Part shown: positions 21,338 through 36,279 of the stretch, one piece after another
Numbering within the stretch: the stretch's first letter is position 1
How the letters are laid out: every line of letters starts with the position of its first letter
Source of the DNA: Verrucomicrobiaceae bacterium
Lineage (GTDB): Bacteria; Verrucomicrobiota; Verrucomicrobiia; Verrucomicrobiales; Verrucomicrobiaceae
Length of the DNA: 64,000 nt
Direction of reading: 5' to 3'
NCBI GenBank assembly: GCA_019694165.1
Contig: JAIBCL010000007.1
Coordinates: 62,001 to 126,000, forward strand
Made by a program: the position numbers and the translations under genes
The notes under the pieces: generated by a model
Told to the model about the DNA's origin: nothing
The model's database searches: none
Seen by the model: the letters and a program-made list of their open reading frames with translations, nothing else

Positions 21338-22210
21338 TCACGCCTGCGGCAGACCCGGCACAAAAAACGGGCGCGCACCTGCGAATCCCTCCACCTCGCA
21401 TTCGTCAATCCTCCATGTGAGCACGCCGATCTCCTCGGCTGCTGTCTCGCTGAAAAGCACGGGCTGTCTCAAGCGCGCGGCCACCTTTTCCATGCGGAAG
21501 GCGAAGTTCACCTCCGCGCCGTGCAGGTTCACCTCCGCCATTGTCGGCACGCTGCCCACAGCGGCTTCGCCGTAATGCACGACGATGCGGAACGGCGGCG
21601 ATTTCTTTTCCTGCATCGACTTGAGGGCATCGAGCACGGTGCGCAGCTGGGCGGACGATTCTGGACCGGCGATCCAGTAGCAGAAGAAACCATCGCCCAG
21701 GTACTTCATCACATGGCCGCCGTGCGCGTCGATGATCTCGCGGCATTCCTTGAACCAGCCGCCGGTGATGCGCGGCAGCTCCTCGGCGCTCATCTGCTGC
21801 GCCAACCTCGTCGAGCCAATGATGTCGGCCATCAGCATCCAGCACTGCGCCGTCTTCACCGTGAGAATTGTGGATTCCAGCAGGCCGGAGGCCGACGGAT
21901 GATCAGCTTTGATCCGCTCGGAGCCAAAGCGCAGCCGCACGCCCGACAGCTCGATCACATCTCCCGCTTTCAATTCCACCGGCTGTGAGATGCGGCGCTC
22001 ATTCACCCAGCAACCGTTCGCACTGCCGAGATCGACGAGCCAGAATTCGCCTTCACCCTGTGCCTGGATGAGCGCGTGGCGGCGGGAAACTTCCTTTCCC
22101 GCGAGCGCCAGCGCGTTTTCCGAAGCACGTCCCACCGTCGTCGATCCGCGCAGATCAAAGCGCGAGCCGTCGGGGAGTTCGAGCCAGGAGAGTGAGAGTG
22201 CGTCGCTCAT
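21338..22210 (-). CDS. FHA domain plus class III nucleotidyl cyclase
   Basis: A 290-aa soluble protein. Residues ~1-95 form an FHA phosphothreonine-binding domain (GRASENALAL, SRRHALI, DLGSANGCWVN). Residues ~120-290 form a class III adenylate/guanylate cyclase catalytic domain. Its metal-binding Asp residues are in MLMADIIGSTRL and KYLGDGFF, and the motif VNFAFRMEKVA is present. cAMP is the likeliest product, but the base is not certain. ATG 22210 is used because AGGGTGAG lies 10 nt upstream; a GTG at 22225 overlapping the previous stop is also possible. It follows a DUF4058 gene and a Ser/Thr kinase in one orientation, so the FHA domain may read the kinase's output. Confidence 0.88.
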   Translation of the reverse strand: MSDALSLSWLELPDGSRFDLRGSTTVGRASENALALAGKEVSRRHALIQAQGEGEFWLVDLGSANGCWVNERRISQPVELKAGDVIELSGVRLRFGSERIKADHPSASGLLESTILTVKTAQCWMLMADIIGSTRLAQQMSAEELPRITGGWFKECREIIDAHGGHVMKYLGDGFFCYWIAGPESSAQLRTVLDALKSMQEKKSPPFRIVVHYGEAAVGSVPTMAEVNLHGAEVNFAFRMEKVAARLRQPVLFSETAAEEIGVLTWRIDECEVEGFAGARPFFVPGLPQA

Positions 22211-22221
22211 GCCTGGTTGGC

Positions 22222-23016
22222 TCACCCTGTCAGTCCGGCGGCTTTGAGCCGCTCAGTGACCCACGTCATCTCGTCCTCGGGCAGCGCGGGATCGGGCACG
22301 TTTTGATAATCGGCATCCCAATAGCCGCCCATGCGGTGGGCGCGGTCCACCAGCGGCTGCATGGCGAGCACCACGTCCTTGTCCGTTTTGCGCAGCGGGA
22401 TGGAGATGTTCGGCAGCGGATCGCGCAACGAGGAGACATAGACCTCGAGCCGCGTGGAGTTCGACGCACGAAAGACACTGGTCAGATAGAATGAGCCAGC
22501 GGGTTTCTCAAAAGCATCTGCAGGCACGACGAGCGAGTGCATGCCGCCGCGCAGCAGGTCGATCTCCACCAGATTCACGCGCGCATGGATGTAAGTGTCC
22601 TGCCGCGCGATGTAGTTCGCGCGCTCCTTGCCCTTGTTCGCGGGGCTGAGCACCTCGATCACCGTGATGAGTTCGCCATTCCGGTCCGTGATTTCGATCC
22701 AGCGCTCCGTCTCTTCGGACAAGAGCACGATTTGCGGCTCGGTTGCGATGATGACGTCGTCCTTTTTTGGCTCCGGCTCCCATTGTGGAGGCACGCCGCG
22801 CTTCCACGACTCCACCACAGCCACGTCCGCGCGCGGGTTAGATTTTTTTCCTTCCGAGTCATGCAGCGTCACGCGCTCCTCGCTGCGCGCCTTGAGTTCC
22901 GGCGGCAGTTGATCCGCGATCGAGTCGCGGATGTAGCCGATCAATGCCGTATGCACGTCGTACCAGTGCCGCTCCAGAAACAGATTCATGCCGGGGAAAG
23001 GATTGTCTCTCGTCAT
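22222..23016 (-). CDS. DUF4058 family protein
   Basis: A 264-aa protein with the family hallmarks: NPFPGMNLFLE...W near the start, the IRDSIADQLPPELKARSEERV stretch, and a core with ELITVIEVLSPANKGK. That last motif resembles the E-V-x-S-P-x-N-K pattern of restriction-endonuclease-like folds. The function of DUF4058 is not established; it is common in Planctomycetes, Verrucomicrobia and Cyanobacteria. The gene lies 54 bp after the kinase gene, and its stop is within 15 nt of the cyclase start, so the three genes are probably cotranscribed. Confidence 0.85.
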   Translation of the reverse strand: MTRDNPFPGMNLFLERHWYDVHTALIGYIRDSIADQLPPELKARSEERVTLHDSEGKKSNPRADVAVVESWKRGVPPQWEPEPKKDDVIIATEPQIVLLSEETERWIEITDRNGELITVIEVLSPANKGKERANYIARQDTYIHARVNLVEIDLLRGGMHSLVVPADAFEKPAGSFYLTSVFRASNSTRLEVYVSSLRDPLPNISIPLRKTDKDVVLAMQPLVDRAHRMGGYWDADYQNVPDPALPEDEMTWVTERLKAAGLTG

Positions 23017-23070
23017 GGCCGCATTTTAGCCTCCGGACACGAGGTTGCAATCAAGGCGACGGTATGCGTG

Positions 23071-26000
23071 TCACGGCGCGGGAATCTCGAGCACGCATCG
23101 AAAACCGTACGCGGAATCGTGCTTGTCGGGGACCTCGCTCCAGCGGCCTGCGAGGCTGAGCTGCGACTTCTCCGTACACCACCAGCAGCCACCTCGGAGC
23201 GCTTTCTTGCTGGTTCCATTGCCGTAGGCATCCTCGGTCCACTGCCACAGGTTGCCGCCCATGTCGAAGAGGCCGTACCGGTTGGCCTTGTAGCTGCCAA
23301 CGGGCGAGGTGCCGCCCCAGCCGTCGGCGTAGCCGTCGATGATTCCCATCTTGAGTCCCGTCTTTTCCTTTTTCAGCAGCCGTGCGAGGCTGGTGTCAGC
23401 GTAGTTGCCGGAATGGTTGGGCGGCGGCCAGCGTGTGCCCCACGGGTACACATCCTTGAGTTTGTCGTGACGCTGCGAGGGTGAGGCGTTGGAATTTTCT
23501 TGGTCGCCAATGCCCGCCGCGAAGCTCCATTCCAGATCGCTCGGCAGGCGGTATGTCAGACCTTCTTTTGCGCTCAGCCACTTGCAGAACGACCGCGCTT
23601 CGTTCCAGTTCACGGCGGAGACCGGCATGGACTGGGTGTCGGGCTTGTCCACTTCCCAGGTCTTCTTCAGATCATCGCCCGCCTGCATCGCGTTTGCGTA
23701 TGCAAGGAAATCACTCCGGCGTGTGAGGTAAACGGAAAAGAGAAGCTTCGTCCCCGGCACGGGCACGAACTTCATGCCGAGGGTGTTCACGAAGGGCTGA
23801 GGAACGGTCGCGGATTTCAAATCAACTGCCGGCACGGATGAAGCGTTCGCGCTTGAAGGAGGGCTTTTCGTTGTTGTCGGTGCCGAGGCGCTTGCAGTGC
23901 CGCCGGGTGGCGTGGTCACCAGCACGCAGCGGAATCCAAAGTCATGCCGACGTTGCAGCGGTCGGTCGTGATAGCGATAGGATGACCAGAAATCCGTCGG
24001 CCCCTTGCGCATCCACGAGCTTCCGCGAAGAACATGGTCCTCACTATTGTTGTTCCAACGATCTTCGCACCACTCCCAACAGTTGCCGGCCAGGTCGTAT
24101 AGGCCGAGCGCAGTCGGTCGGAAGCTCATCACGGGGCTTGTGGTCACAAATCCGTCAGTGTAGTCGGCATTGTAGGAATTCGTGGGAAAGTTCTTGATCA
24201 GCGCCGTGTCGGCTACGTTGGCCGTGCCCGGAGGTGGCCATTCCTTGCCCCACGGAAACACGTCTTTGATTTTGCTGTGCAGGTTTTCAGGCGAGTCGAA
24301 GCCTTCGCGATCACCGATCCCAGACGCCCAGCTCCACTCACGATCAGTCGGCAACCGGTAGGTGCGGCCCTCCTGCTTTCCGAGCCAGTCACAAAATGCC
24401 TTGGAATCCTCCCAGTTCACATTCGCCACCGGATGAAGGTCTTCTTCGCCGGGCTTCGGTTCGACGGCGACCTGCCGCTTCCACTCGCCATTCGCGCTCG
24501 GCACTTGAAGTGCATACGCAGCGTAATCCTTGCGACGCGTCTCGTGGATGCAGAACAGCACGTCCGTTCCCGGCACGGGCACAAACTTCATGCCGAGCGT
24601 GTTCACAAACGGCTGATCAGCGGTCGCCGTTTTCGGGTCGGCGATGGTGGCGGGCACCTGGGTCGATCCCGATGAAGCCGGGGTCGAAGCTCCGCCAGTT
24701 TCGAGACTGGCGGCTGAAACCACGCAGCGAAAACCGATCATGCTGTAACGAGCATCTGGCGCGTAGGAATAGCGATAGGCTGAAGCGAGCAGAGGCCGCG
24801 TCGAACTGCTGTAGGAGCCGCCGCGCAGAATGCGCGCGGTCTTGGCTGCATCCTGCCATCCATCACACCACTCGAGGACGTTGCCGCCCAGGTCATGGAT
24901 GCCCAGCGCGTTGGGTTTGAATTGCATCACTGGAGCCGTGGCGGGAAAGCCATCGTCAAACCCGGCGATGTACTCATCGCCGGTTCGCGGTGTTTGGTTC
25001 TTCCGGCTTTGGTCCGAGTAGTTTCCCGCGCCCGGCGGTGGAGGCCACTCATTGCCCCACGGAAACTCCGTCCGTGCATTGGCGCCCTTGGCATTCGTTG
25101 ATCGTACTTCTTCTGCCGCGCTGCTCCACTCCTCATCAGTCGGCAGCCGGTAAGTCTTGCCCTCCTTCCGGCTCAACCACGCACAGAACGCCCGGGCATC
25201 CTCCCAGTTCGTGCGCATCACGGGATGGTCGCTCGCGCGATCGTTGATCAAAAAAATGCCATGCTTCTGAGTCTTCCAGCTCATGTCCACGCCAGGATTC
25301 TCATTTGCAAAGGCCGCGTAGTCCCGATGGCGCGTTTCATGGATGCAGAACAGTACCTTCGTTCCCGGCACCGGCACGAACTTCATGCCGAGGGAGTTCT
25401 CAAATGGAGTCGCCGCGCTGAACTGCGGATCATCCGTCGGCCCGGCTAGGCTCTCGCGATAATCACGCACCGCCTTCGCATCGGTGATGCGCTTCGCCTT
25501 CGTCAAATCCGTCTCCAGCGTCTTGAGCCGCACGGAGAGCGGATCGGTGAGCGTTTTCAGATTCGCCGCGCGTGCGGACTCGAGCTTGGCAAACGCCGCG
25601 CGATAAGTGGCGCGCAGATTTTTCACGGCGGCTTTGGTTTGGGCGTTGTCCGTCGCGGGCACGGGCTGTTTTGCTGCGAGCAGCTTCTTCTCCTCCTCCA
25701 GCGCCAGCACGCCATCGAGCCGCCCGGCGGCGCGCTCCTTCGCGATGTCACGGTCGATGCCGCCGAGGTAGCTGGTGTTCAGCTTCGCCACGTCCGCGTC
25801 GAACACAGCGGTTACTCGCTCGGCCTTCAATTGCAGAAACTGTTTCTGCAGTCCCGCCAGTTCAGCCGGGACATTCTCGGCAGACGGAGCAGACGTGCTT
25901 TCCAATTCTTTGGGGTTGCCGACGATTTTCTCGTTTGGACCTAAGTCTGGCAGACCGCGCATGGCGGCTCGGACAAACGTTATCGACTGATTGGAGCCGA

Positions 26001-28425
26001 CCTGCGCATGAGTTGTGCCGAAATCATTCGGCCAGGACGAACTCTTCGAAAATCGATTCCTAGGGCCGTGATAGGTAGCAACGATCTTTGCGTCAAGGTA
26101 AAGACAGAGATCGACGTCTTCGCCCGCGCGCCGCACCTCCACGCGGACGACATAGCGTTTACCAAGCTCGAAGCGAAGCGGTGAGTAGAACGTCTTGTCT
26201 GAATACAGCCATGGGTCTTTGTGGTCGATATTGCCGAGGCCGGCCACCGCCTTGTCTCCAGCCAGCCAGCAGGTCGCGAGCGTTCGGTCGCCTAGGGGCA
26301 CGAGCATGCCTACTCTTGCCTTCGGATCATCGCACCTGAACTCCAGTTCGAGCGCATGACTCGGAGGAGGCATTGCTGGTATGTCAAAACTGCCGCAATA
26401 AGTCGGCGTGCCGTCATTGCCTTGCCATTGGATGCCGTCAGCAGTGCGCCGCCAGGTGGAATGTGAACTCGCGTGTTTGACTGGATCGACGAGTGAAAGC
26501 ACGTCCGACCAAGGCGTTTCTACAGACATGGATGAAGCTGTTTGATTGCCGGTTGCTGCTGGAGTGGCAGCAGGCGTTGCCGCCTTGGCAGACAAGTCAG
26601 CATACTCGAAGCGCTCGATCACCACGCCCTCATGGCCATAGAAAGAGGGAAAACCCTGCGGGATGCGGGCATCGGTCAGACTGTCGAGTGTCTGCCCGTC
26701 GAGGATGATCGTCAGTGTCGTGCCCACCGCGCGGAACTCGAGCGTGTGCGGTGCGCTCCAGTCAAACGATGCGGGCCACGGATATAGCCTGTTCACCACA
26801 GATGACTTGTGAACGACGTTGAACGCAAACCGCACCCCCTTCTGCTCCTTTCGGCAATCCAAACCGTAGGCACGGTCGTCGGTGCCGGGCACTGTTCGCT
26901 CCTCGCGGAGGTCGATGCCCCATGACTCACCACGGGCAGTCAATCGCGCGGCTTGATCGGTCAATGGCGACGCCAATCCTGCCGGGTAATGCCGTCCGGC
27001 ATCACGAAGGACGCGAACCGATCTGCCGTCGGCTTCGCGGGCGAAATTCCTGGCGGCGTCCGGCTCTGAGAAAAGTCCCGGAAGACCGTCCACCCAATTG
27101 GTGATGGGCGCTGGCGCCTTCATGCTCTTGGGTTCCGACACCGCGCCCCCATCAATGCTTGCACTGACACTGGGTGATGCTGCGCTCTTGCCGGACGGCG
27201 CGGGATTGACCGGTGGGCTGGCCGGAGAAGCGGCAGGCGGCATCGCGGCATCGGCTCTGGTTTTGTCCGCTTCCATCTTTGACCGGTTCAAGAAGAACCA
27301 TGCCGCTGCTCCAGCGATCACCACCAGCGCCACCCAAGGCAGCGCGGACGTTTTCTTCTCCGGCTGCTTTGCGACGCGCGATCGCGCAGCGCCTTGCGGT
27401 GGACGGAAGGGCTGGCCCGGCTGGCGTTGCGGGCGTGCTTCGGTCGGCAAGGCGGCGGGCGCTTTCGCGGCATCGGCCTCCACTTTGATCACCGGCTGCG
27501 TGAGGATGCTGTCGAGATCGGAGCGCAGCTCGCGCACGCTTGGGTAGCGGAGGTTGCGGTCTTCACGCAGCGCTTTGGTGATGATGCCGTCGTAGCGCGG
27601 ATCGAGACCGGGCACTTGCAGGCTGGGCATTTCAAAGAGGCCCTGCGGCAGCTTGCCGGTGAGCATTTGGTAGAGCATGACGCCCACGGCATAAATATCG
27701 GCGCGGTGATCGACGGCGGTGCCGAGCGTGAGCGCCTCGGGCGCCATGTAGTGCAGCGTGCCCATCATCTGGCCGCTCTGCGTGAGGCCGGTGGTCTGCC
27801 CGGCGTGATTGATTTTCGCGAGGCCGAAGTCGGCCACCTTCACCACGCCATCGTAGCCGACCATGATGTTCGCGGGCTTGATGTCGCGGTGAATGATGCC
27901 GCGCTCGTGCGCATACGCGAGCGCATCACACACGTGCGCGGTGATCGCCATCGCGTGCTCGGAATGCAGCCGCCCCTGCTCGACGATCATGCGCGCCACA
28001 TCGGTGCCCTCGATGAACTCCATGACGATGTAGAGAAGCCCATGGTGGGGCGGGCTGTCCCCAGCCCGCCGTTCTCCAGACGGCGCTTCGGGGACGAAGC
28101 GCCCTACCCCAGTCTCTCCGCAATCATGCACGGTGACGATGCCGGGATGCGCGAGCCGCGCCATCGCGCGCGCCTCATTCTTGAAGCGCTCGGCGTAGCC
28201 CATGTTCCGCTCATCGAGATCGACGGGCAGAATCTTGATGGCCACGCGGCGGTCGAGCGCGATCTGCCTGCCTTCATACACCGCGCCCATCCCGCCGCGG
28301 CCGATGAGGCGCGTGATCTCGCAGTCGTGAATGAGCGATCCTAGCTCCTCCGGCGCGGGCGGTTGCCACGATCGCCCTTTCCCCGCAGATTGCGGCGGAT
28401 CGGGACGATCGGGAGAGGAATTCAT
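23071..28425 (-). CDS. Receptor-type Ser/Thr kinase with three SUMF1-like domains
   Basis: A 1784-aa single-pass membrane protein. A cytoplasmic Hanks-type kinase (~32-308) has GRGGMGAVYEG, AIKIL, HRDIKPANIM, DFGLAK and MAPEAL. One transmembrane helix (~360-380, WVALVVIAGAAAWFFL) leads to a huge outer part. That part has a laminin-G/DUF1080-like region (~640-830), a helical or coiled-coil stretch (~850-990) and three SUMF1/FGE-type modules starting near 1010, 1270 and 1543, each opening (E/V)N(S/T)LGMKFVPVPGT. The Cys pair of active formylglycine enzymes is not seen, so ligand binding is likelier than catalysis. A ~23-residue insertion in the kinase comes from repeat DNA (28041-28110). Start ATG 28425 is chosen over an upstream in-frame codon. 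Confidence 0.88.
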   Translation of the reverse strand: MNSSPDRPDPPQSAGKGRSWQPPAPEELGSLIHDCEITRLIGRGGMGAVYEGRQIALDRRVAIKILPVDLDERNMGYAERFKNEARAMARLAHPGIVTVHDCGETGVGRFVPEAPSGERRAGDSPPHHGLLYIVMEFIEGTDVARMIVEQGRLHSEHAMAITAHVCDALAYAHERGIIHRDIKPANIMVGYDGVVKVADFGLAKINHAGQTTGLTQSGQMMGTLHYMAPEALTLGTAVDHRADIYAVGVMLYQMLTGKLPQGLFEMPSLQVPGLDPRYDGIITKALREDRNLRYPSVRELRSDLDSILTQPVIKVEADAAKAPAALPTEARPQRQPGQPFRPPQGAARSRVAKQPEKKTSALPWVALVVIAGAAAWFFLNRSKMEADKTRADAAMPPAASPASPPVNPAPSGKSAASPSVSASIDGGAVSEPKSMKAPAPITNWVDGLPGLFSEPDAARNFAREADGRSVRVLRDAGRHYPAGLASPLTDQAARLTARGESWGIDLREERTVPGTDDRAYGLDCRKEQKGVRFAFNVVHKSSVVNRLYPWPASFDWSAPHTLEFRAVGTTLTIILDGQTLDSLTDARIPQGFPSFYGHEGVVIERFEYADLSAKAATPAATPAATGNQTASSMSVETPWSDVLSLVDPVKHASSHSTWRRTADGIQWQGNDGTPTYCGSFDIPAMPPPSHALELEFRCDDPKARVGMLVPLGDRTLATCWLAGDKAVAGLGNIDHKDPWLYSDKTFYSPLRFELGKRYVVRVEVRRAGEDVDLCLYLDAKIVATYHGPRNRFSKSSSWPNDFGTTHAQVGSNQSITFVRAAMRGLPDLGPNEKIVGNPKELESTSAPSAENVPAELAGLQKQFLQLKAERVTAVFDADVAKLNTSYLGGIDRDIAKERAAGRLDGVLALEEEKKLLAAKQPVPATDNAQTKAAVKNLRATYRAAFAKLESARAANLKTLTDPLSVRLKTLETDLTKAKRITDAKAVRDYRESLAGPTDDPQFSAATPFENSLGMKFVPVPGTKVLFCIHETRHRDYAAFANENPGVDMSWKTQKHGIFLINDRASDHPVMRTNWEDARAFCAWLSRKEGKTYRLPTDEEWSSAAEEVRSTNAKGANARTEFPWGNEWPPPPGAGNYSDQSRKNQTPRTGDEYIAGFDDGFPATAPVMQFKPNALGIHDLGGNVLEWCDGWQDAAKTARILRGGSYSSSTRPLLASAYRYSYAPDARYSMIGFRCVVSAASLETGGASTPASSGSTQVPATIADPKTATADQPFVNTLGMKFVPVPGTDVLFCIHETRRKDYAAYALQVPSANGEWKRQVAVEPKPGEEDLHPVANVNWEDSKAFCDWLGKQEGRTYRLPTDREWSWASGIGDREGFDSPENLHSKIKDVFPWGKEWPPPGTANVADTALIKNFPTNSYNADYTDGFVTTSPVMSFRPTALGLYDLAGNCWEWCEDRWNNNSEDHVLRGSSWMRKGPTDFWSSYRYHDRPLQRRHDFGFRCVLVTTPPGGTASASAPTTTKSPPSSANASSVPAVDLKSATVPQPFVNTLGMKFVPVPGTKLLFSVYLTRRSDFLAYANAMQAGDDLKKTWEVDKPDTQSMPVSAVNWNEARSFCKWLSAKEGLTYRLPSDLEWSFAAGIGDQENSNASPSQRHDKLKDVYPWGTRWPPPNHSGNYADTSLARLLKKEKTGLKMGIIDGYADGWGGTSPVGSYKANRYGLFDMGGNLWQWTEDAYGNGTSKKALRGGCWWCTEKSQLSLAGRWSEVPDKHDSAYGFRCVLEIPAP
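28041..28110. repeat. Two-hairpin repeat inserted in frame in the kinase domain
   Basis: Two perfect hairpins lie side by side: 28049-28070 (ggcgggct-gtcccc-agcccgcc) and 28082-28103 (ggcgcttcg-ggga-cgaagcgcc). The segment encodes about 23 residues between the kinase motifs HDCGE and YIVMEF. The paralogous kinase at 31081-36279 has only DSGEMPDGTLYFVMEF at the same place. Confidence 0.8.
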
Positions 28426-28504: not shown

Positions 28505-28573
28505 CTACCTGCTCCGCCCGATCACCGCGATCACCACGCCCGCAAGCAGCAGCAGCGCGGCAAGGATGCGCTC
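28505..28573 (-). pseudogene. 3' remnant of an EamA/DMT transporter gene
   Basis: Read on the minus strand from 28573, the codons give ERILAALLLLAGVVIAVIGR then Ser-Arg and a stop at 28505-28507. This closely matches the C-terminus of the intact EamA-type transporter at 41122-42024 (RIAAALLLLGGVVVAVIGR, Ser-Arg, stop). No other part of such a gene is present. It is fused directly to the truncated SHD1 gene upstream, in another frame, which points to a deletion or recombination that joined two genes. Confidence 0.7.
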
Positions 28574-28761
28574 AGCTTCACGAGCGGCACTGCAAACGCT
28601 TCGGCGTCCTTCTCGATCACGACGGACTCCCCATCGAGCTCGATGAACTTGGCCTGGATCACGCGGCCATCGCTGGCGGTCCATGTTTCCAGGTCGGTGG
28701 TTTGCGCCAGCGTGCAGGTCGCTGCGAGCGTCAGCAGGGCGAGGATGGCTTTGGTGCTCAT
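28531..28761 (-). pseudogene. Truncated secreted SHD1-domain protein
   Basis: A 76-aa frame with a signal peptide (MSTKAILALLTLAATCTLAQ) and most of an SHD1 domain (LETWTASDGRVIQAKFIELD, VPLVKLSA). Similarity to the neighbouring SHD1 proteins ends at about base 28574. After that point the frame reads an unrelated SLPRCCCLRAW tail, because the DNA is the 3' end of a transporter gene in another frame. It may still be translated and exported as a minimal SHD1 protein, but it looks like a broken gene. Confidence 0.6.
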
Positions 28762-28804: not shown

Positions 28805-30280
28805 TTACTTTTGGCGGCCGTCCGGCACGAGCGCGGGGTCGATGGTGCCGGTTTGCTCGCCGAGGGTGAAGTCGTGCCAAAGATCGTGCCTTGGCAGGCT
28901 GCTGGTCATGCGGCCATTCATCTCGCGTAGAGCAGCGGAGTTGAAGAAGAAATATGGCTTGGATGACCATCCGATCAGGATGAGTCGGATTGAATCGCCG
29001 GGCTTCCTGCCCAGCTCAGCCAACGGAATGAGGTAACTGTCCACACGGACTTTTTTGCCGTCCGCCGCAGGTTCGAACCGCACGTCTCCCCGGCCTTGAG
29101 AATCGTCCTTCTGATCGGAGGATGGCTTGTCGGCGAGCACTCTGTAGGATAGCCCCGGCTTGGTGCTTGCCCCGTCGGCGGCGGTTTCAAGACGGTAGAA
29201 GCGATCGAGACCGGGCGTGTCCTTGCGGTCTGCATCAAGGTCGAGGAAGAGTGTCGAGAAGTCGCCGGTCTTGGGCAGATTCGCCGCCTCCCCGTCCGCC
29301 CAGATCACCGCCTGCACATAGAGCCACTCGGCATTGCTCCAGACGCTGAGGCGGAACTCCTTTTCGTCCCGCAGCACTTTTGCCGAGGCCTGAGGGAAAC
29401 CGAATGCTCCGTTCTTGCGCAGCTCGGGTGAGTCGTTGATGGCAAGCGGCGGCGCTGGTTTGGCGGTGCCGAACTTGATGTTTGGATCTTCAGAAATTTT
29501 CAGCGCATCCTCGTCGGGGTGCTGAAACCGTGGTGACCTCGTTTTGCTGCTTTCCGCCGAGGTCCAGTAAGCCACGAGGTTGCCTTTGATACCGCTCACC
29601 GATTGGCTGATGCCCGGCTCCGTGGGCAGTGGATCGTCCCATGATTCGTTGGGTTCTTTTGGGCCGCGCGCTTTGGCCGCAGCCTTTGCTGCGTCCAGGG
29701 AACTGTAGCCGGTGCTGATTTTCGCACCGTCCTTTGCCAGGCCGAGTTTGGCAAACACCTCGCCCATCGTTTTCAGCGTGCCCTTGGGGAAGTAGCAGAT
29801 CACCGAGTTCACCGTGGTGGGGACAGGTCCGGACATGCTGCCCTCCGGCAGGCGCTCCAGCTTGATGCGTGAGATGCCCGGCACGGAGGATTTGTAGTAG
29901 CGCGCGAAGGAGCGCCACTGACCGTCGGGTTCCTCGACCTTCTCCGGCTTGCCAAGCACGGCCTCGCATTGCTCGAAGGTCTTGCCTAACCAGGAAACAG
30001 GATCGTTGGCCTTCACATCGCCTTTGACAGGAGGAGCATCCGCCACACCTGCGAGCTTCTTCGCCAGCGCGACGCTCTCGGGAGAAAGTTTGCCGATTGG
30101 GAAAACAAATTCCCGCCCATTCACGTCCAAGGTCACACTATCGCCTTGGAGCTTGATGAATTTCGCCTGGATGACTTTGCCTTTGGTGTCGGTCCAGGTT
30201 TGCAGGTCGGAGGATTGCGCAAGCGCGAGGGTGGCGAGGCTCAAAGAGAACAACAGGGCGATGGGTGTGGATGTCTTCAT
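28805..30280 (-). CDS. Secreted SHD1-domain protein with C-terminal DOMON/CBM9-like domain
   Basis: A 491-aa exported protein with signal peptide MKTSTPIALLFSLSLATLALAQ. An SHD1 domain (~23-75: LQTWTDTKGKVIQAKFI, FVFPIGKLSPESV) is followed by a central region of unknown type (~95-230, with FEQCEAVLGKPEKVEE). The C-terminal ~220 residues are a beta-sandwich (FRLSVWSNAEWLYVQAVIWA, LFLDLDADRKDTPG) resembling CBM9/DOMON sugar- or heme-binding domains. SHD1 was named after yeast Sla1, and its bacterial role is unknown. It is one of three SHD1 genes in tandem between two kinases, one of which also carries SHD1. Confidence 0.75.
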   Translation of the reverse strand: MKTSTPIALLFSLSLATLALAQSSDLQTWTDTKGKVIQAKFIKLQGDSVTLDVNGREFVFPIGKLSPESVALAKKLAGVADAPPVKGDVKANDPVSWLGKTFEQCEAVLGKPEKVEEPDGQWRSFARYYKSSVPGISRIKLERLPEGSMSGPVPTTVNSVICYFPKGTLKTMGEVFAKLGLAKDGAKISTGYSSLDAAKAAAKARGPKEPNESWDDPLPTEPGISQSVSGIKGNLVAYWTSAESSKTRSPRFQHPDEDALKISEDPNIKFGTAKPAPPLAINDSPELRKNGAFGFPQASAKVLRDEKEFRLSVWSNAEWLYVQAVIWADGEAANLPKTGDFSTLFLDLDADRKDTPGLDRFYRLETAADGASTKPGLSYRVLADKPSSDQKDDSQGRGDVRFEPAADGKKVRVDSYLIPLAELGRKPGDSIRLILIGWSSKPYFFFNSAALREMNGRMTSSLPRHDLWHDFTLGEQTGTIDPALVPDGRQK

Positions 30281-30353: not shown

Positions 30354-31031
30354 CTACAGCCCGGGCGGATGGCGTTCCGTCCACTCGGGGCCGCCGCGCA
30401 GGAACGTGCTCCAGCGTGGTCCGGCGGGGCCGATGCCGCCGCGGCCACCGGTATCCAGCCGCAAACCGCAGAGCGTGATGAACACATGGCCGGGCCGGGT
30501 GTGAATGGTGATCCACTTTCCGGGGCCGGGATCGCCGAAGGTGGCGAAGGTCTGCGAGGTCCGCGGTTCGTCGAGAAGGCCGGCTTTGATCAGCATGTAA
30601 GACACCGCGCCGGAGCAGTCGTAGCCGGTGTCTTCGAGAGTGTCGCGCCCACCGCCGACCTTGTAGCCCTTGGTTTGCAGGGTGTTGCCTGCGCTGATCG
30701 CTCGGGTGACTGGCTCGGGTGCACCTTCCGGCGCGGTGGCGATGGTGCCATGCAGCACCGCATCATGCACGACCGGAGCGTGAGGCGCTTTGGCTGCGGC
30801 TGCTTCTCCCATTTTGCGCGCCTGCACCATGCTGGCCGGGCTGAGTTTTACCAATGGCACCGTGAAGGCCACTCCGTCCTTCTCGATCACCACGGCGTTG
30901 GTTTCGTAGCGGACGAACTTCGCCTGGATGATGCGACCATCGCTGGAGGTCCAGGTTTGGAGATCGGAGGTTTGCGCCCAAGTCAGCGTGACGCTGGCGA
31001 GCAGCAGGCAGGTTGTAACTTCGAATTTCAT
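30354..31031 (-). CDS. Secreted SHD1 / NlpC-P60 fusion (probable peptidoglycan peptidase)
   Basis: A 225-aa exported protein. A signal peptide (to about AQ20) is followed by SHD1 (LQTWTSSDGRIIQAKFVRYE, VPLVKLSPASM). Residues ~110-225 form an NlpC/P60-like cysteine peptidase domain. Cys139 in GYDCSGAVSYML and His182 in RPGHVFITL are the likely catalytic pair, and it ends GPRWSTF...RHPPGL. P60-family enzymes cleave peptidoglycan stem peptides in the periplasm, so a wall-remodelling role is reasonable. SHD1 may localise the enzyme; that is inference. All catalytic landmarks that I can see are intact. Confidence 0.8.
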   Translation of the reverse strand: MKFEVTTCLLLASVTLTWAQTSDLQTWTSSDGRIIQAKFVRYETNAVVIEKDGVAFTVPLVKLSPASMVQARKMGEAAAAKAPHAPVVHDAVLHGTIATAPEGAPEPVTRAISAGNTLQTKGYKVGGGRDTLEDTGYDCSGAVSYMLIKAGLLDEPRTSQTFATFGDPGPGKWITIHTRPGHVFITLCGLRLDTGGRGGIGPAGPRWSTFLRGGPEWTERHPPGL

Positions 31032-31080: not shown

Positions 31081-34000
31081 TCAACGTGTGATTTTCAGCG
31101 CGGGGTTCGCGGCCTGAAGCGCCGCGACGCCAGAGTCAGTGACCCGTGTGCCTGCCAGATGAAGACTCCTCAGCGTTTTCATGCCCTGCAGGGTCTTCAG
31201 TCCCGAATCCGTGAGTTGGGTGTTGTTCAATCGCAAGGTTTCGAGTGTGGCAAGCGTCGCAATATTGGCCATTCCTGCGTCAGACACCGCCTTGTTGCCT
31301 TCCAAGGTGAGTTCCTTTAGCCTGCTAATACGATCGAGTTTCTTCAGACCCTTCTGAGTGATCTCTACGTTCGTGAGGTCGAGTACTTCCAGGTCCTGGA
31401 GTGCGCCGAGGTGGTCCATGGCGGCATCTCCCATCTTTGGCATGCTGCGCAGGCTGAGATTGCGGAGCTTCGCCAGTCCTGTGAGATGCTGGAGGCTGGC
31501 ACCGGTCAAGTTTGGGCACCAGTTCAGATCCAGCGCTTCCAGCTCCGGCATGCTTGCGAGGTGCTTGAGCGCGTTATCTGAGATCGGCTGGGCGGGGAGT
31601 TTCAGAATTCTTAGATCAGTGAAAGCAGTCAGTTTGGACAAGTCCGCATCCTTGATAGAAGCGTTATTGCGCGCGTCCAGTCTGATGGTTGTCACCTTGA
31701 GATCATCCGTAGGCAGATCGGCTGACTTGCTGATCACGCGAGTTTTGCCATTCTCCGAGATTTCCAATACGCCGCCTCTGCTCAGTACCCACTCAGCGGC
31801 CTCACGCGTCGAGCGGGCAGCTACAGGCTCGGGAGTTGATTTGCCCGCTGACGCTGTGGGCGCATCCCACTCGACCAGATAGCCCTGCGTGAAATCACGC
31901 CACTGGGGGTCGGACTCCGAGATGTCATTCCAGCCCATGCGTGTCCCCGGCCTTGAGTAATAAGCCAGCATGTAAGGTGGTGTCGCTTTCGGGCCGGTCG
32001 CCTTGGCGTTGTTCGGCTCAGACGCAGCCCACTGTGTGAAGTCGAACTTCTCGCCGCTGACCCACGCCCATGGAAGGTTGGGTTTCTCCTGAATGCCGCC
32101 GATCCAGAAGGTTTTTCCCGGAGCGATCCTGGTTTGAAACTGGCTGACCACCCAGTTGTCTTCGGCGGCGCTGGTGATCGTCGCAAGATGGCCGCCGAGT
32201 GCCTCGGCTTTCTCCTTGGCCTCCTTCCATGTGATCGCGCCTGAAAACCATGCGTAGCGCGATTTGCCAAAACTCAAGGCATCGGCGGGAATCTGCGATG
32301 GTGCCGGTGCACCCGACGCCGTATCCGCTGCAGGGCCGGCCTGCCGCTGATACTCCTGCGCCAGTTTCTGGCTCTCGGGTGAGAGTGTGTTCATCGCCAC
32401 GGGCGTGACCTTGCCGGCTATCTCCAGCAGCACCTTGTCTCCGTTGGTGCCCTTGTATGCCGCCGTGATGCTGCGGCCTTTGGTATCCGTCCAAGTTGTA
32501 TTCGCAGAAGCTGTCGAGGACTGGTAAGGGAAAGGTCGGATGACTGCTTTGTGGAATACGATGGCGCTACCTGTTGCGCCCAGTCCCAAGTTGTCTCCTT
32601 CCTTCCAGTTCTTGGCACGCATCGGGAAACGCGCGACATCGCCTTTCCAGTCCTTCACCGTCTGTTTGTTGAGCAGCCCTGTCAGCGCGCCCTTGCGGAC
32701 TTGAACGATCGAGCGGTAGCGCGTTCCCTTCACCAAGTGCCCTCCCTTGAGCCTGATCGTTGCTTCGGTGTCATGCCCGTAATTGTCCAGATTGATGAAT
32801 CCATAAACTGGATTGGTGAACTGCGCCTGGGTCTGCATGGTCCAGTCAATCGTTCTTCCTTCCGCTGTGAAGAGTTGATGGACATCACCGATATTCTCAG
32901 TCTGGAGTGAGAACTCGATTTCGAAATCATACTCCGGCGGCAGTTGCAGCGGCATGCTCAGGGAAAGGAATCCGGAGCCTTTCTCAAGAAGCAGGCCCTC
33001 TGGAGTCATGCGCCAAGTTCCCCTGACTGATTGCTTTGCAGGGTCGATCAAAGGCATGAGGTCGGTGACCTTGGCTGTGGTGTTGGGCGGAGCGGAGGAT
33101 GTTGGAGCTGACGTGCTTGCAGCGTTCGGTGGCTGCGAAGACGGTGTTGGTGAAGTTGATGTTTTCGTCTCTTTGGTTTGTAGGCTCGCTAACTCGACCA
33201 CGCAACGAAAGCCCGTGCTGCCTCCTCGCCGTTCATTGTCCCTCACTTGTGGATAATTCCGATGGGACGACAGCAAGTTGGACATTACTCCGCCAAACCA
33301 CGCATCACCTCGGAGATACCAGACTCCAGAATTGGTGACCAATTCGGAAATGTTACCTCCGAGATCATAGATGCCGAGAGGGTTGGGCTTGAAACTCATC
33401 ACGGGAGCGGTGGCAGGATAGCCGTCGTTCAGGCTGTCAATCGCACCCATCGTTGGCCCTTTGAATCCTGTTTTGAAGGCCGCGTCTCGATAGTTGCCGT
33501 CGCCAGCCACAGGCGGCCAATAGTCCCCCCAAGGATACCTTCCGGTGAGCTTCTCGTTCAGGGACTCCGGGGTGGCTTTCTCATCTTCATCTTTGGCGAT
33601 CCCGACCGCCCAGCTCCATTCGCGATCTGTCGGCAGACGGTAGGTTTTGCCATCCTTCTTGCTCAACCACTCACAGAACCCTTTGGCTTCATCAAACAGG
33701 ATGTTGCTAACGGGATGATCACCCTCCGTGGGAAGCTTGAAGCCGTTGTAGGCCTTGGGCGTTTTCCAAGCAGGATCAAGCGAAGGCGTCTCCGCTGCAA
33801 AGGCCGCGAAATCAATTTGGCGCGTCTCGTGAATGCAGAAGAGCACTTCCGTTCCCGGCACGGGAACGAACTTCATGCCGAGGGTGTTGGTAAAGGGGGC
33901 TTCTTTGGTGGTGGCGGTTGTGACCGTTGCTGATGGAGGGGCGACTGCGGTATTCGCCTCCTTGGTTTGCAGGCTGGCAGTCTCGACGACGACGCGGAAG

Positions 34001-36279
34001 CCGTAGTTGCTGTAGTGAGCGGAGGCGATGGCACTGATGCGGCGGGATGAGAGCAGCCACTCGGGTGTGCCGCACTTCCAGCAGGCACCGCGCACCACGC
34101 GCTCCTTGTGCGCGCTGTCGATCCAGTCTCCGCACCATTCGCGCACGTTGCCCGCGAGGTCATGGATTCCGAGCGCGTTCGGCGCAAATGTCATCACGGG
34201 CGCGGTGTGCGCCCAGCCGTCGGTGTAGTTGGTCATGGGGGTGACGTCTGATGCCTTGCCGATGACGGAGGTGTCGGCGTAGTTCTCGAACCGCGTGGGC
34301 GGCGGCATGGAGCTGCCCCAGGGAAAGACGTTGGCGAGCTTCATGCTCAAATCCGCTGGTGAAGCCGTGGCAGACTCGCGGTCCGCAATGCCGATGGCGG
34401 TGCTCCATTCACGATCCGTGGGCAGGCGATACACCCGGCCTTCCTTCGCGCTCAGCCAAGCGCAGTAGGCATCGGCGTCTGCCCAACTGACGTGGACGAC
34501 AGGGTGATCGTCACTTGGGATGACAATCTGTGCGGTGCCTTTGACCTCGACCTTCTGGCTGGCCCAGAGATTGCCGACGGGGTGATCCTTGGCAAAGGGG
34601 GCATAGTCAGCCTTCCGCGTCTCATGGATGCACATGAGGATCCTGGTGCCCGGCACAGGAACGAATTTCATGCCGAGGCTGTTGGTGAAGGGGGCTTCTG
34701 TGGTGGCAGAGCTGGCGGGAGCATTGGCCGATGAGGGAGCGGGCACTGGTTGTGGTCTCGCAATCGCGATTCTCGACAGGATGCCGACCATGCTGACGGT
34801 CTTCACCTTGATGAACTGAACGTCAGCGGTGTTGGCGCTGGTGAAGTTGATGAGGAAGTAGAAGCCGCTGGTGTCGAGGGTGGTGACTTTGAGCGCAGCG
34901 CCACCTTCCTCGATGCTCCACGTCGCCTGTTGCTGACCGCCCACGGAGGCGAACTTCACCACCTCGTTGCCCGTGCTCTTGAACTCCAAGGTGTCGTAAC
35001 GCGAATCGTTGGTGTAGTGCGTGCGCCATGAGGTGCCGAGTACATTTGCCTTCATGAAGGCATCGTCGATTTTGATAGTAGCAGTGGATGACTCGCCGCC
35101 TGCAATGGTCGGTGGTGTCGTCGCTGGCGCTGGAGCAGCCGCAGTTGTCGCGTCATCCTTCGTCTTTGCATGATCCCAAAACATCCAAGCCGCCGTCGCG
35201 CCGAGCGCGAGGACCAAGAGCCACACCAGCGCCGAGGTCTTCTTCTCATACTTCACCACTACTTGTGGCTGCGGCGGACGAAAGGGCTGGTGCGGTGAGC
35301 GTTGCGGACGCGCCTGGGTGGGCAGCGCGGCGGGCGGTGGTGCGGCTGCATCTGCGGGCTGGGCTTGCACTTTGGCCACTGGCGCAGTGAGGATGCCATC
35401 GAGCGCGAGCCGCATTTCGCTGATCTGCTGGTAGCGCTGCTCGCGGCTGTCGCGCAGCGCCTTCGTGATGATGGCATCGTAGCGCGGATCAAGGCCGGGC
35501 ACTTGCAGCGAAGGCATCTCGAACATGCCCTGTGGCAGCTTGCCGGTGAGCATCTGGTAAAGCATGACGCCCACCGCATAGATGTCCGCGCGATGATCCA
35601 CCGCACTGCCCAGCGTGAGCGCCTCGGGTGCCATGAAGTGGAGCGTGCCCATCACCATGCCGCTGCGCGTAAGACCCGTCTCACCGGCCACGCTGGTTTT
35701 TGCCAGGCCAAAGTCCGCCACCTTCACGCGGCCATCGTAGCCGACCATGATGTTGGCCGGTTTAATGTCGCGATGGATGACGCCGTGCTCGTGCGCATAC
35801 TGGAGCGCATCGCAGACGTGTGCGCAGATGGCCATCGCGTGCTCGGAATGCAGTCGGCCCTCGATGGCGACCATCTGCGCCACGTCGGTGCCCTCGACGA
35901 ACTCCATGACGAAGTAGAGCGTCCCGTCCGGCATCTCGCCGGAGTCATAGACGGCGACGATGCCCGGATGGTTGAGCTGCCCCATGGCGCGTGCCTCCTG
36001 CTTGAAGCGCTGGGCAAAGTTTTCGTCCGCGATCTGCAATTCAGGCGGCAGAATCTTGATGGCGACCACGCGGCCGAGCGAAGTTTGCGTGCCGCGATAC
36101 ACCGCGCCCATGCCGCCGCGCGCGATGAATTTCTCCACGGTGTAACCCGGCAGCATTGCCTGCACGGCCTCCACGGTCGGCGGCACCCATGCGGCTTTTC
36201 TCTCCGGCGTGGTGCTGGGGGTGAGCAGCAGGTCACGCATCTGCTGCGTCGGTGTCTTGGGTGCGGGATCGTCTGGCAT
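31081..36279 (-). CDS. Receptor-type Ser/Thr kinase with SUMF1, LamG-like, SHD1, C-type lectin and LRR modules
   Basis: A 1732-aa single-pass membrane protein. The cytoplasmic Hanks-type kinase (~50-320) has ARGGMGAVYRG, VAIKIL, HRDIKPANIM, DFGLAK and MAPEAL. A transmembrane helix follows near 357-377 (VWLLVLALGATAAWMF). The outer part contains two SUMF1-type modules (from ~528 and ~795, each opening FTN(S/T)LGMKFVPVPGT) and a LamG-like region (~1068-1248). An SHD1 domain (~1258-1311), a C-type-lectin-like domain (~1331-1468, with WKEAKEKAEALGGHLATI and WNDIS) and a C-terminal leucine-rich-repeat region (~1490-1732) complete it. It looks like a multi-ligand sensor. The three SHD1 genes lie immediately downstream. 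Confidence 0.88.
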   Translation of the reverse strand: MPDDPAPKTPTQQMRDLLLTPSTTPERKAAWVPPTVEAVQAMLPGYTVEKFIARGGMGAVYRGTQTSLGRVVAIKILPPELQIADENFAQRFKQEARAMGQLNHPGIVAVYDSGEMPDGTLYFVMEFVEGTDVAQMVAIEGRLHSEHAMAICAHVCDALQYAHEHGVIHRDIKPANIMVGYDGRVKVADFGLAKTSVAGETGLTRSGMVMGTLHFMAPEALTLGSAVDHRADIYAVGVMLYQMLTGKLPQGMFEMPSLQVPGLDPRYDAIITKALRDSREQRYQQISEMRLALDGILTAPVAKVQAQPADAAAPPPAALPTQARPQRSPHQPFRPPQPQVVVKYEKKTSALVWLLVLALGATAAWMFWDHAKTKDDATTAAAPAPATTPPTIAGGESSTATIKIDDAFMKANVLGTSWRTHYTNDSRYDTLEFKSTGNEVVKFASVGGQQQATWSIEEGGAALKVTTLDTSGFYFLINFTSANTADVQFIKVKTVSMVGILSRIAIARPQPVPAPSSANAPASSATTEAPFTNSLGMKFVPVPGTRILMCIHETRKADYAPFAKDHPVGNLWASQKVEVKGTAQIVIPSDDHPVVHVSWADADAYCAWLSAKEGRVYRLPTDREWSTAIGIADRESATASPADLSMKLANVFPWGSSMPPPTRFENYADTSVIGKASDVTPMTNYTDGWAHTAPVMTFAPNALGIHDLAGNVREWCGDWIDSAHKERVVRGACWKCGTPEWLLSSRRISAIASAHYSNYGFRVVVETASLQTKEANTAVAPPSATVTTATTKEAPFTNTLGMKFVPVPGTEVLFCIHETRQIDFAAFAAETPSLDPAWKTPKAYNGFKLPTEGDHPVSNILFDEAKGFCEWLSKKDGKTYRLPTDREWSWAVGIAKDEDEKATPESLNEKLTGRYPWGDYWPPVAGDGNYRDAAFKTGFKGPTMGAIDSLNDGYPATAPVMSFKPNPLGIYDLGGNISELVTNSGVWYLRGDAWFGGVMSNLLSSHRNYPQVRDNERRGGSTGFRCVVELASLQTKETKTSTSPTPSSQPPNAASTSAPTSSAPPNTTAKVTDLMPLIDPAKQSVRGTWRMTPEGLLLEKGSGFLSLSMPLQLPPEYDFEIEFSLQTENIGDVHQLFTAEGRTIDWTMQTQAQFTNPVYGFINLDNYGHDTEATIRLKGGHLVKGTRYRSIVQVRKGALTGLLNKQTVKDWKGDVARFPMRAKNWKEGDNLGLGATGSAIVFHKAVIRPFPYQSSTASANTTWTDTKGRSITAAYKGTNGDKVLLEIAGKVTPVAMNTLSPESQKLAQEYQRQAGPAADTASGAPAPSQIPADALSFGKSRYAWFSGAITWKEAKEKAEALGGHLATITSAAEDNWVVSQFQTRIAPGKTFWIGGIQEKPNLPWAWVSGEKFDFTQWAASEPNNAKATGPKATPPYMLAYYSRPGTRMGWNDISESDPQWRDFTQGYLVEWDAPTASAGKSTPEPVAARSTREAAEWVLSRGGVLEISENGKTRVISKSADLPTDDLKVTTIRLDARNNASIKDADLSKLTAFTDLRILKLPAQPISDNALKHLASMPELEALDLNWCPNLTGASLQHLTGLAKLRNLSLRSMPKMGDAAMDHLGALQDLEVLDLTNVEITQKGLKKLDRISRLKELTLEGNKAVSDAGMANIATLATLETLRLNNTQLTDSGLKTLQGMKTLRSLHLAGTRVTDSGVAALQAANPALKITR

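Follow-up and report, generated by a model that had tools for sequence, protein, structure and literature searches.

In bacteria, serine/threonine (Ser/Thr) phosphorylation and signalling by cyclic nucleotides are usually handled as separate networks. OdhI and GarA are FHA proteins that are switched by phosphorylation of a flexible segment of their own chain. The closest worked-out precedent for a cyclase gated by an FHA domain is DgcB of Bdellovibrio (PDB 6hbz), an FHA-GGDEF diguanylate cyclase controlled by its phosphorylated tail, the kinase being unidentified (PMC6733907). The Myxococcus protein PKN2 is a kinase with a class III cyclase domain on the same polypeptide, and Ser/Thr kinases with FGE/NirV (DUF323) domains, such as those of chlamydiae, are also on record (PMC1262709). 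Here we analyse a 64,000-nucleotide stretch of DNA (the window) from a Verrucomicrobiaceae bacterium (GenBank assembly GCA_019694165.1, contig JAIBCL010000007.1, positions 62,001 to 126,000). Open reading frames and Pfam domains place three genes on its minus strand between positions 21338 and 28425: in order along that strand, a Ser/Thr kinase with a predicted membrane span, a DUF4058 protein, and a protein in which an FHA domain is joined to a class III nucleotide cyclase domain (FHA-cyclase). All window features described below lie on the same strand.

A preliminary description of this locus had proposed a phospho-to-cyclic-nucleotide relay running through all three genes and without any described counterpart. 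Its account of the layout was accurate: the genes are co-directional, with gaps of exactly 54 bp (kinase/DUF4058) and 11 bp (DUF4058/FHA-cyclase), the kinase carries SUMF1-like modules, and the FHA domain is attached to an active-looking cyclase. The phosphothreonine-binding and catalytic residues are intact. The claim of novelty was too strong, given DgcB and PKN2; since these systems and the FGE kinases have already been described, our own proposal is a variation on known themes. We found no paper describing a relay from an FHA domain to a class III cyclase in a literature search that did not extend to subscription papers and is therefore not proof of absence. Of the relay itself, the kinase/FHA-cyclase half is supported by intact motifs and by proximity across the family, while DUF4058 as a component is disfavoured by the missing linkage and by its predicted PD-(D/E)XK fold. 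We therefore lean, with slightly less than even confidence, towards a two-part relay from kinase to FHA-cyclase with DUF4058 as a bystander, which is the likeliest of the explanations considered. In such a relay the membrane kinase, its FGE domains outside the cytoplasm, would phosphorylate itself or another threonine, either on a substrate in trans or in the cyclase's own disordered linker, for example at Thr114. The soluble cyclase would then dock on the phosphothreonine through its FHA domain, which would join its two class III cyclase halves or recruit them to the membrane and so turn synthesis of a cyclic nucleotide, probably cyclic AMP (cAMP), up or down. The adjoining kinase would be the natural candidate for the partner, and DUF4058 would be a co-located but separate protein.

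The source genome (7.8 Mb, Verrucomicrobiota) contains about 51 protein kinase genes, so that a kinase next to the cyclase in a single genome is unremarkable on its own; the signal beyond chance is the family-level enrichment in other genomes. A class-wide search of 384 genomes yielded 41 further FHA-cyclase loci from 16 other families. Expected counts were derived from the kinase number and size of each genome, assuming uniform placement, and the kinase profile came from a small training set of sequences. A kinase domain lay within 400 bp at nine of the 41 loci, compared with 0.31 expected (Poisson P 5e-11), and within 2.5 kb at 19, compared with 0.85. Counted per family, the figures were 4/16 within 400 bp (0.30 expected, P 2.6e-4) and 7/16 within 2.5 kb (0.79 expected, P 2e-5). 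As an internal control, kinase density was 0.22/kb at 0-500 bp from the cyclase and 0.0125/kb at 4.5-8.5 kb. FHA-cyclases were also present in 63 of 77 relatives, where they form the window protein's own clade (18 orthologues, 43-60% identity) and a sister clade (about 30%); taking the expectation for these relatives from the kinase density of the source genome, 5/40 sister-clade loci had a kinase within 400 bp (0.59 expected). In a maximum-likelihood phylogeny of 107 sequences, well-supported branches forced at least seven changes in tight adjacency, and kinase adjacency has therefore been gained or lost repeatedly. A scan of genome contigs revealed, in Opitutae metagenome-assembled genomes (L144 and L145), an FHA-cyclase followed, about 70-110 bp away, by a same-strand kinase with PEGA and FGE domains, and FGE-bearing kinases were found beside the FHA-cyclase at L212, L214 and L219 as well, those at L219 facing the cyclase. 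Together with the intact motifs, this family-wide proximity supports a two-part relay. We read the link as a soft functional association and not as a fixed operon.

The FHA-cyclase gene (21338-22210) encodes a predicted soluble protein of 290 amino acids (Pfam FHA 1.4e-20, Guanylate_cyc 5e-10), for which AlphaFold2 gave a mean predicted local distance difference test score (pLDDT) of 89. Its ATG start at 22210 is supported by retention of the methionine in 17/18 orthologues; an alternative in-frame GTG upstream, at 22225, would run into the DUF4058 stop. In the FHA domain (21947-22141), Pfam and the alignment of relatives identified the GR, SRRH and NG residues associated with phosphothreonine binding, and G27, R28, S42, R43, H45, N65 and G66 were invariant in 30 relatives. 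The GR, S-x-x-H and N-G signature of a phosphothreonine-binding FHA domain is thus complete, and the domain's profile matches GarA/OdhI (E about 1e-20 to 1e-18). The AlphaFold2 model contains two well-formed domains separated by a disordered linker (residues 103-115, 21866-21904; pLDDT <50). At the edge of this linker, Thr114 (position 119 if numbered from the GTG) is retained in 17/18 orthologues and is a candidate phospho-site only. Like OdhI and GarA, then, the window protein has a clade-conserved threonine in a flexible segment as well as a matching FHA profile; unlike them it carries a cyclase, and its flexible segment, in which phosphorylation is no more than a candidate event, lies C-terminal to the FHA domain.

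The class III cyclase domain (21467-21850) was delimited from Pfam, residue alignment and Foldseek. It retains D129 and D173 (metal), K169 and N228 (purine site) and N235 and R239 (transition state); the residues expected of an active enzyme (D129, D173, N235 and R239) are likewise present in 16-17 of the 18 orthologues. At the purine-specifying positions, canonical adenylyl cyclases combine Lys with Asp or Thr. In the window protein Lys169 is kept and its partner is Asn228 in place of Asp/Thr, whereas the second position is Thr in the sister clade. Because the pair here is Lys/Asn, the product is uncertain, and the cyclase may be gated but make something other than cAMP, or the protein may serve chiefly as a phosphothreonine adaptor. 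Drift of the purine pair, which is Lys/Thr in the sister clade and Gly/Glu or Ser/Glu in Opitutae, speaks for this alternative, as does the loss of the transition-state Asn in some relatives. Against it, the window protein and nearly all of its orthologues retain every one of the metal Asps, Lys, Asn and Arg, and the best Foldseek matches of the catalytic part are active adenylyl cyclases: the photoactivated enzyme OaPAC was the top solved match (E=1e-11), followed by CyaC and CyaB. We accordingly regard a product other than cAMP, or a chiefly adaptor role, as unlikely.

The Opitutae proteins themselves (L144, L145, L147, L149 and L150) carry Gly/Ser where the purine-site Lys would be, and Glu at the second site, with the metal Asps retained, so an altered nucleotide specificity is possible for them. 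At three of these loci a small gene lies directly 3' of the FHA-cyclase (L147, 10002-10571; L149, 9993-10553; L150, 9944-10504). Judged by eye it looks like an extracytoplasmic function (ECF) sigma factor, and in one locus a kinase comes next.

With its FHA domain fused N-terminal to a cyclase, the window protein has the architecture of a DgcB-type FHA-gated nucleotide cyclase. Both consist of an N-terminal FHA domain, a short linker and a nucleotide cyclase, and in both a kinase-derived phosphothreonine signal would gate a second messenger; among the Foldseek matches listed, DgcB was the only solved structure to align over both domains. They differ in that the GGDEF domain of DgcB makes cyclic di-GMP, whereas the class III domain found here would make cAMP or cyclic GMP. 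The phosphorylated ligand of DgcB is, moreover, its own N-terminal tail. In the window protein the stretch before the FHA domain has only about 20 residues, too few to support a self-binding tail of this kind, which leaves the linker as the candidate ligand. The protein may thus operate in the manner of DgcB without being a DgcB. Finally, the DgcB kinase has no known identity, and the window cyclase has candidate kinases next door.

The kinase (23071-28425, 1784 amino acids) is predicted from Pfam, motifs and a single membrane span to be a transmembrane protein with three C-terminal FGE (SUMF1-like) domains. Its catalytic domain occupies residues 37-260 (27646-28317; PF00069, E=3e-47) and has an intact G-loop, VAIK, HRD, DFG and APE, including the catalytic Lys and the HRD and DFG Asp residues of Hanks-type kinases. 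The predicted span covers residues 361-379 (27289-27345; hydropathy 2.16 over 19 residues). All three FGE-sulfatase stretches (Pfam E=1.3e-87) lie beyond it, at 24721-25344, 23923-24615 and 23092-23658, as located by a PF03781 search of the protein's own genome. The combination of kinase and FGE-sulfatase domains is that of the chlamydial-type FGE/NirV kinases, from which the window kinase differs in having three copies of the FGE domain and an extended region past the span, and in belonging to a large paralogous set in the source genome. PKN2 resembles the window system in pairing a Ser/Thr kinase with a class III cyclase domain; it differs in being a single polypeptide with no FHA domain described and with another membrane layout. 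The source genome also encodes 32 FGE-domain stretches, five class III cyclase domains, two FHA-cyclases and two DUF4058 genes, and three proteins with cyclic-nucleotide-binding (cNMP-binding) domains that are possible downstream receptors.

A second Ser/Thr kinase gene at 31081-36279 (1732 amino acids) encodes two FGE domains, a C-type lectin domain and leucine-rich repeats. The catalytic parts of the two kinases are 63-70% identical, and by sequence the second is a tandem duplicate of the first with different outer modules. Between them lie three paralogous genes (28531-28761, 28805-30280 and 30354-31031) whose common N-terminal module reads DLxTWT..G..IQAKF......V......F..P..KLSP. The first of these, in the gap before the first kinase, is a decayed fragment; the two longer ones (28805-30280 and 30354-31031) had no Pfam match, and a module resembling the shared one also occurs inside the second kinase. 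The tandem kinase pair and the paralogues between them, one of them decayed, identify this as a region of duplication.

Linkage was examined in flanks of up to about 9 kb per side at the 18 orthologues and at about 40 loci of the sister clade. The orthologues come from the same taxonomic order as the window, and none of them had a kinase or DUF4058 gene adjoining the cyclase; nor did the trio occur at any of about 106 other FHA-cyclase loci. Among the genomes examined, the three-gene layout is therefore peculiar to this one, and we rejected three-gene synteny as a conserved system. Conserved linkage, which the preliminary description had made the check on its proposal, thus fails for the trio and for the direct orthologues and holds for the kinase-cyclase pair across the wider family.

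Several of these observations weigh against a relay from the neighbouring kinase. No kinase lay within 2.5 kb of any of the 18 direct orthologues, so the protein functions in its own clade without kinase linkage; with about 51 kinases in the genome, the partner may be any of them. The 41 class loci are not independent, many coming from a single family. Elsewhere the geometry is mostly divergent or convergent rather than operonic, with some tandem cases, and the neighbouring kinases vary in their sensor parts (FGE, PEGA, WD40 and Sel1). Catalysis is also not conserved across the whole family, since several relatives lack the transition-state Asn or the purine-site Lys.

The neighbourhood might therefore be opportunistic: a usually lone cytoplasmic cyclase that integrates phosphothreonine signals from many kinases would have moved to a site downstream of a kinase cluster undergoing tandem duplication and would simply be co-transcribed with it. 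The unlinked orthologues and the abundance of kinases in the genome are in keeping with this, and the tandem pair with decaying paralogues between its members marks a recombining region. In addition, many orthologues are lone genes beside an MFS transporter gene and a NUDIX gene, both of which are missing at the window locus. Two features argue the other way. Enrichment beside kinases in the wider family is roughly 18- to 30-fold, so that adjacency is recurrent for such proteins, and the window genes are separated by only 11 and 54 bp. Neither gap showed a terminator-like site, and the sole promoter-like match is a single weak sigma-70-like one 5' of DUF4058, at chance level, which makes co-transcription of the three genes plausible. 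We consider chance placement a distinct possibility, though not the one we would choose.

The two-part relay draws its interest from the recurrent family-level kinase link and not from this particular operon. Extended to the phylum, it would make FHA-gated class III cyclases a widespread and hitherto undescribed class of direct readouts of membrane Ser/Thr kinases in Verrucomicrobiota, paired many times with different sensor kinases, their purine site having drifted (Lys/Asn here, Gly/Glu or Ser/Glu in Opitutae) and some of their products perhaps being other than cAMP; we offer this generalisation tentatively and with more doubt than belief. If true, soluble cyclases that read phosphothreonine beside receptor-type kinases would constitute a defined hand-over point between the two networks, and would point to targets for some of the phylum's numerous unassigned kinases, 51 of them in this genome.

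The remaining gene of the trio (22222-23016, 264 amino acids) encodes a DUF4058 protein (PF13267, E=5.5e-53) with a predicted PD-(D/E)XK (Uma2-like) nuclease fold (AlphaFold2 pLDDT 85). In an alignment of 19 sequences Asp64 and Glu121, in a T-x-x-E-x-x-S-P motif, were invariant. VIA-align of the model gave restriction-endonuclease-like structures as its top three matches (9y1l, Z 10.4; 6okh, Z 10.3; 3ijm, Z 7.5), well above the rest, which began with BsaWI and EcoRI at 4-5. Foldseek with the same model returned no significant PDB match, and a sequence-profile search with DUF4058 returned none. DUF820 (Uma2) is a recognised PD-(D/E)XK family (PMC1913061), and DUF4058 resembles it at the level of structure (9y1l, 6okh and 3ijm). 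The two sequence profiles match weakly by hhalign (P 0.006, probability 6%), yet with the D and E motifs in register, and DUF4058 has an additional C-terminal part. Because the hhalign match is weak, the fold assignment rests on the model; DUF4058 is probably a PD-(D/E)XK-fold protein, and any nuclease activity is putative. A literature search, again without subscription papers and so not proof of absence, found no paper or experiment on DUF4058.

These properties bear on the full relay as first proposed, in which the kinase would phosphorylate DUF4058 and phospho-DUF4058 would bind the FHA domain and activate the cyclase. The tight three-gene layout is compatible with such a scheme, and DUF4058 does contain threonines. 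Nevertheless, apart from the window locus, none of the FHA-cyclases examined had a DUF4058 gene within about 4 kb, and none of 22 DUF4058 loci had a kinase within 8.5 kb. DUF4058 is also patchy, occurring in 16/77 relatives, compared with 63/77 for FHA-cyclases, and in 2/387 of a phylum sample, and its predicted fold is that of a nuclease. The missing linkage and nuclease-like fold similarly lowered our estimate of DUF4058 as an adaptor or scaffold. We judge the three-part scheme to be very improbable, and DUF4058 is probably a bystander, functionally separate from the two-part relay.

Uma2 genes were themselves seen within 1.5 kb of an FHA-cyclase at seven loci, five of them from one genus-level clade. 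In these five (L038, L041, L043, L045 and L049) the Uma2 gene lies about 1.1-1.4 kb upstream of a lone FHA-cyclase, on the opposite strand; a possible counterpart in the window would be the Uma2-like DUF4058 gene adjoining the same kind of cyclase.

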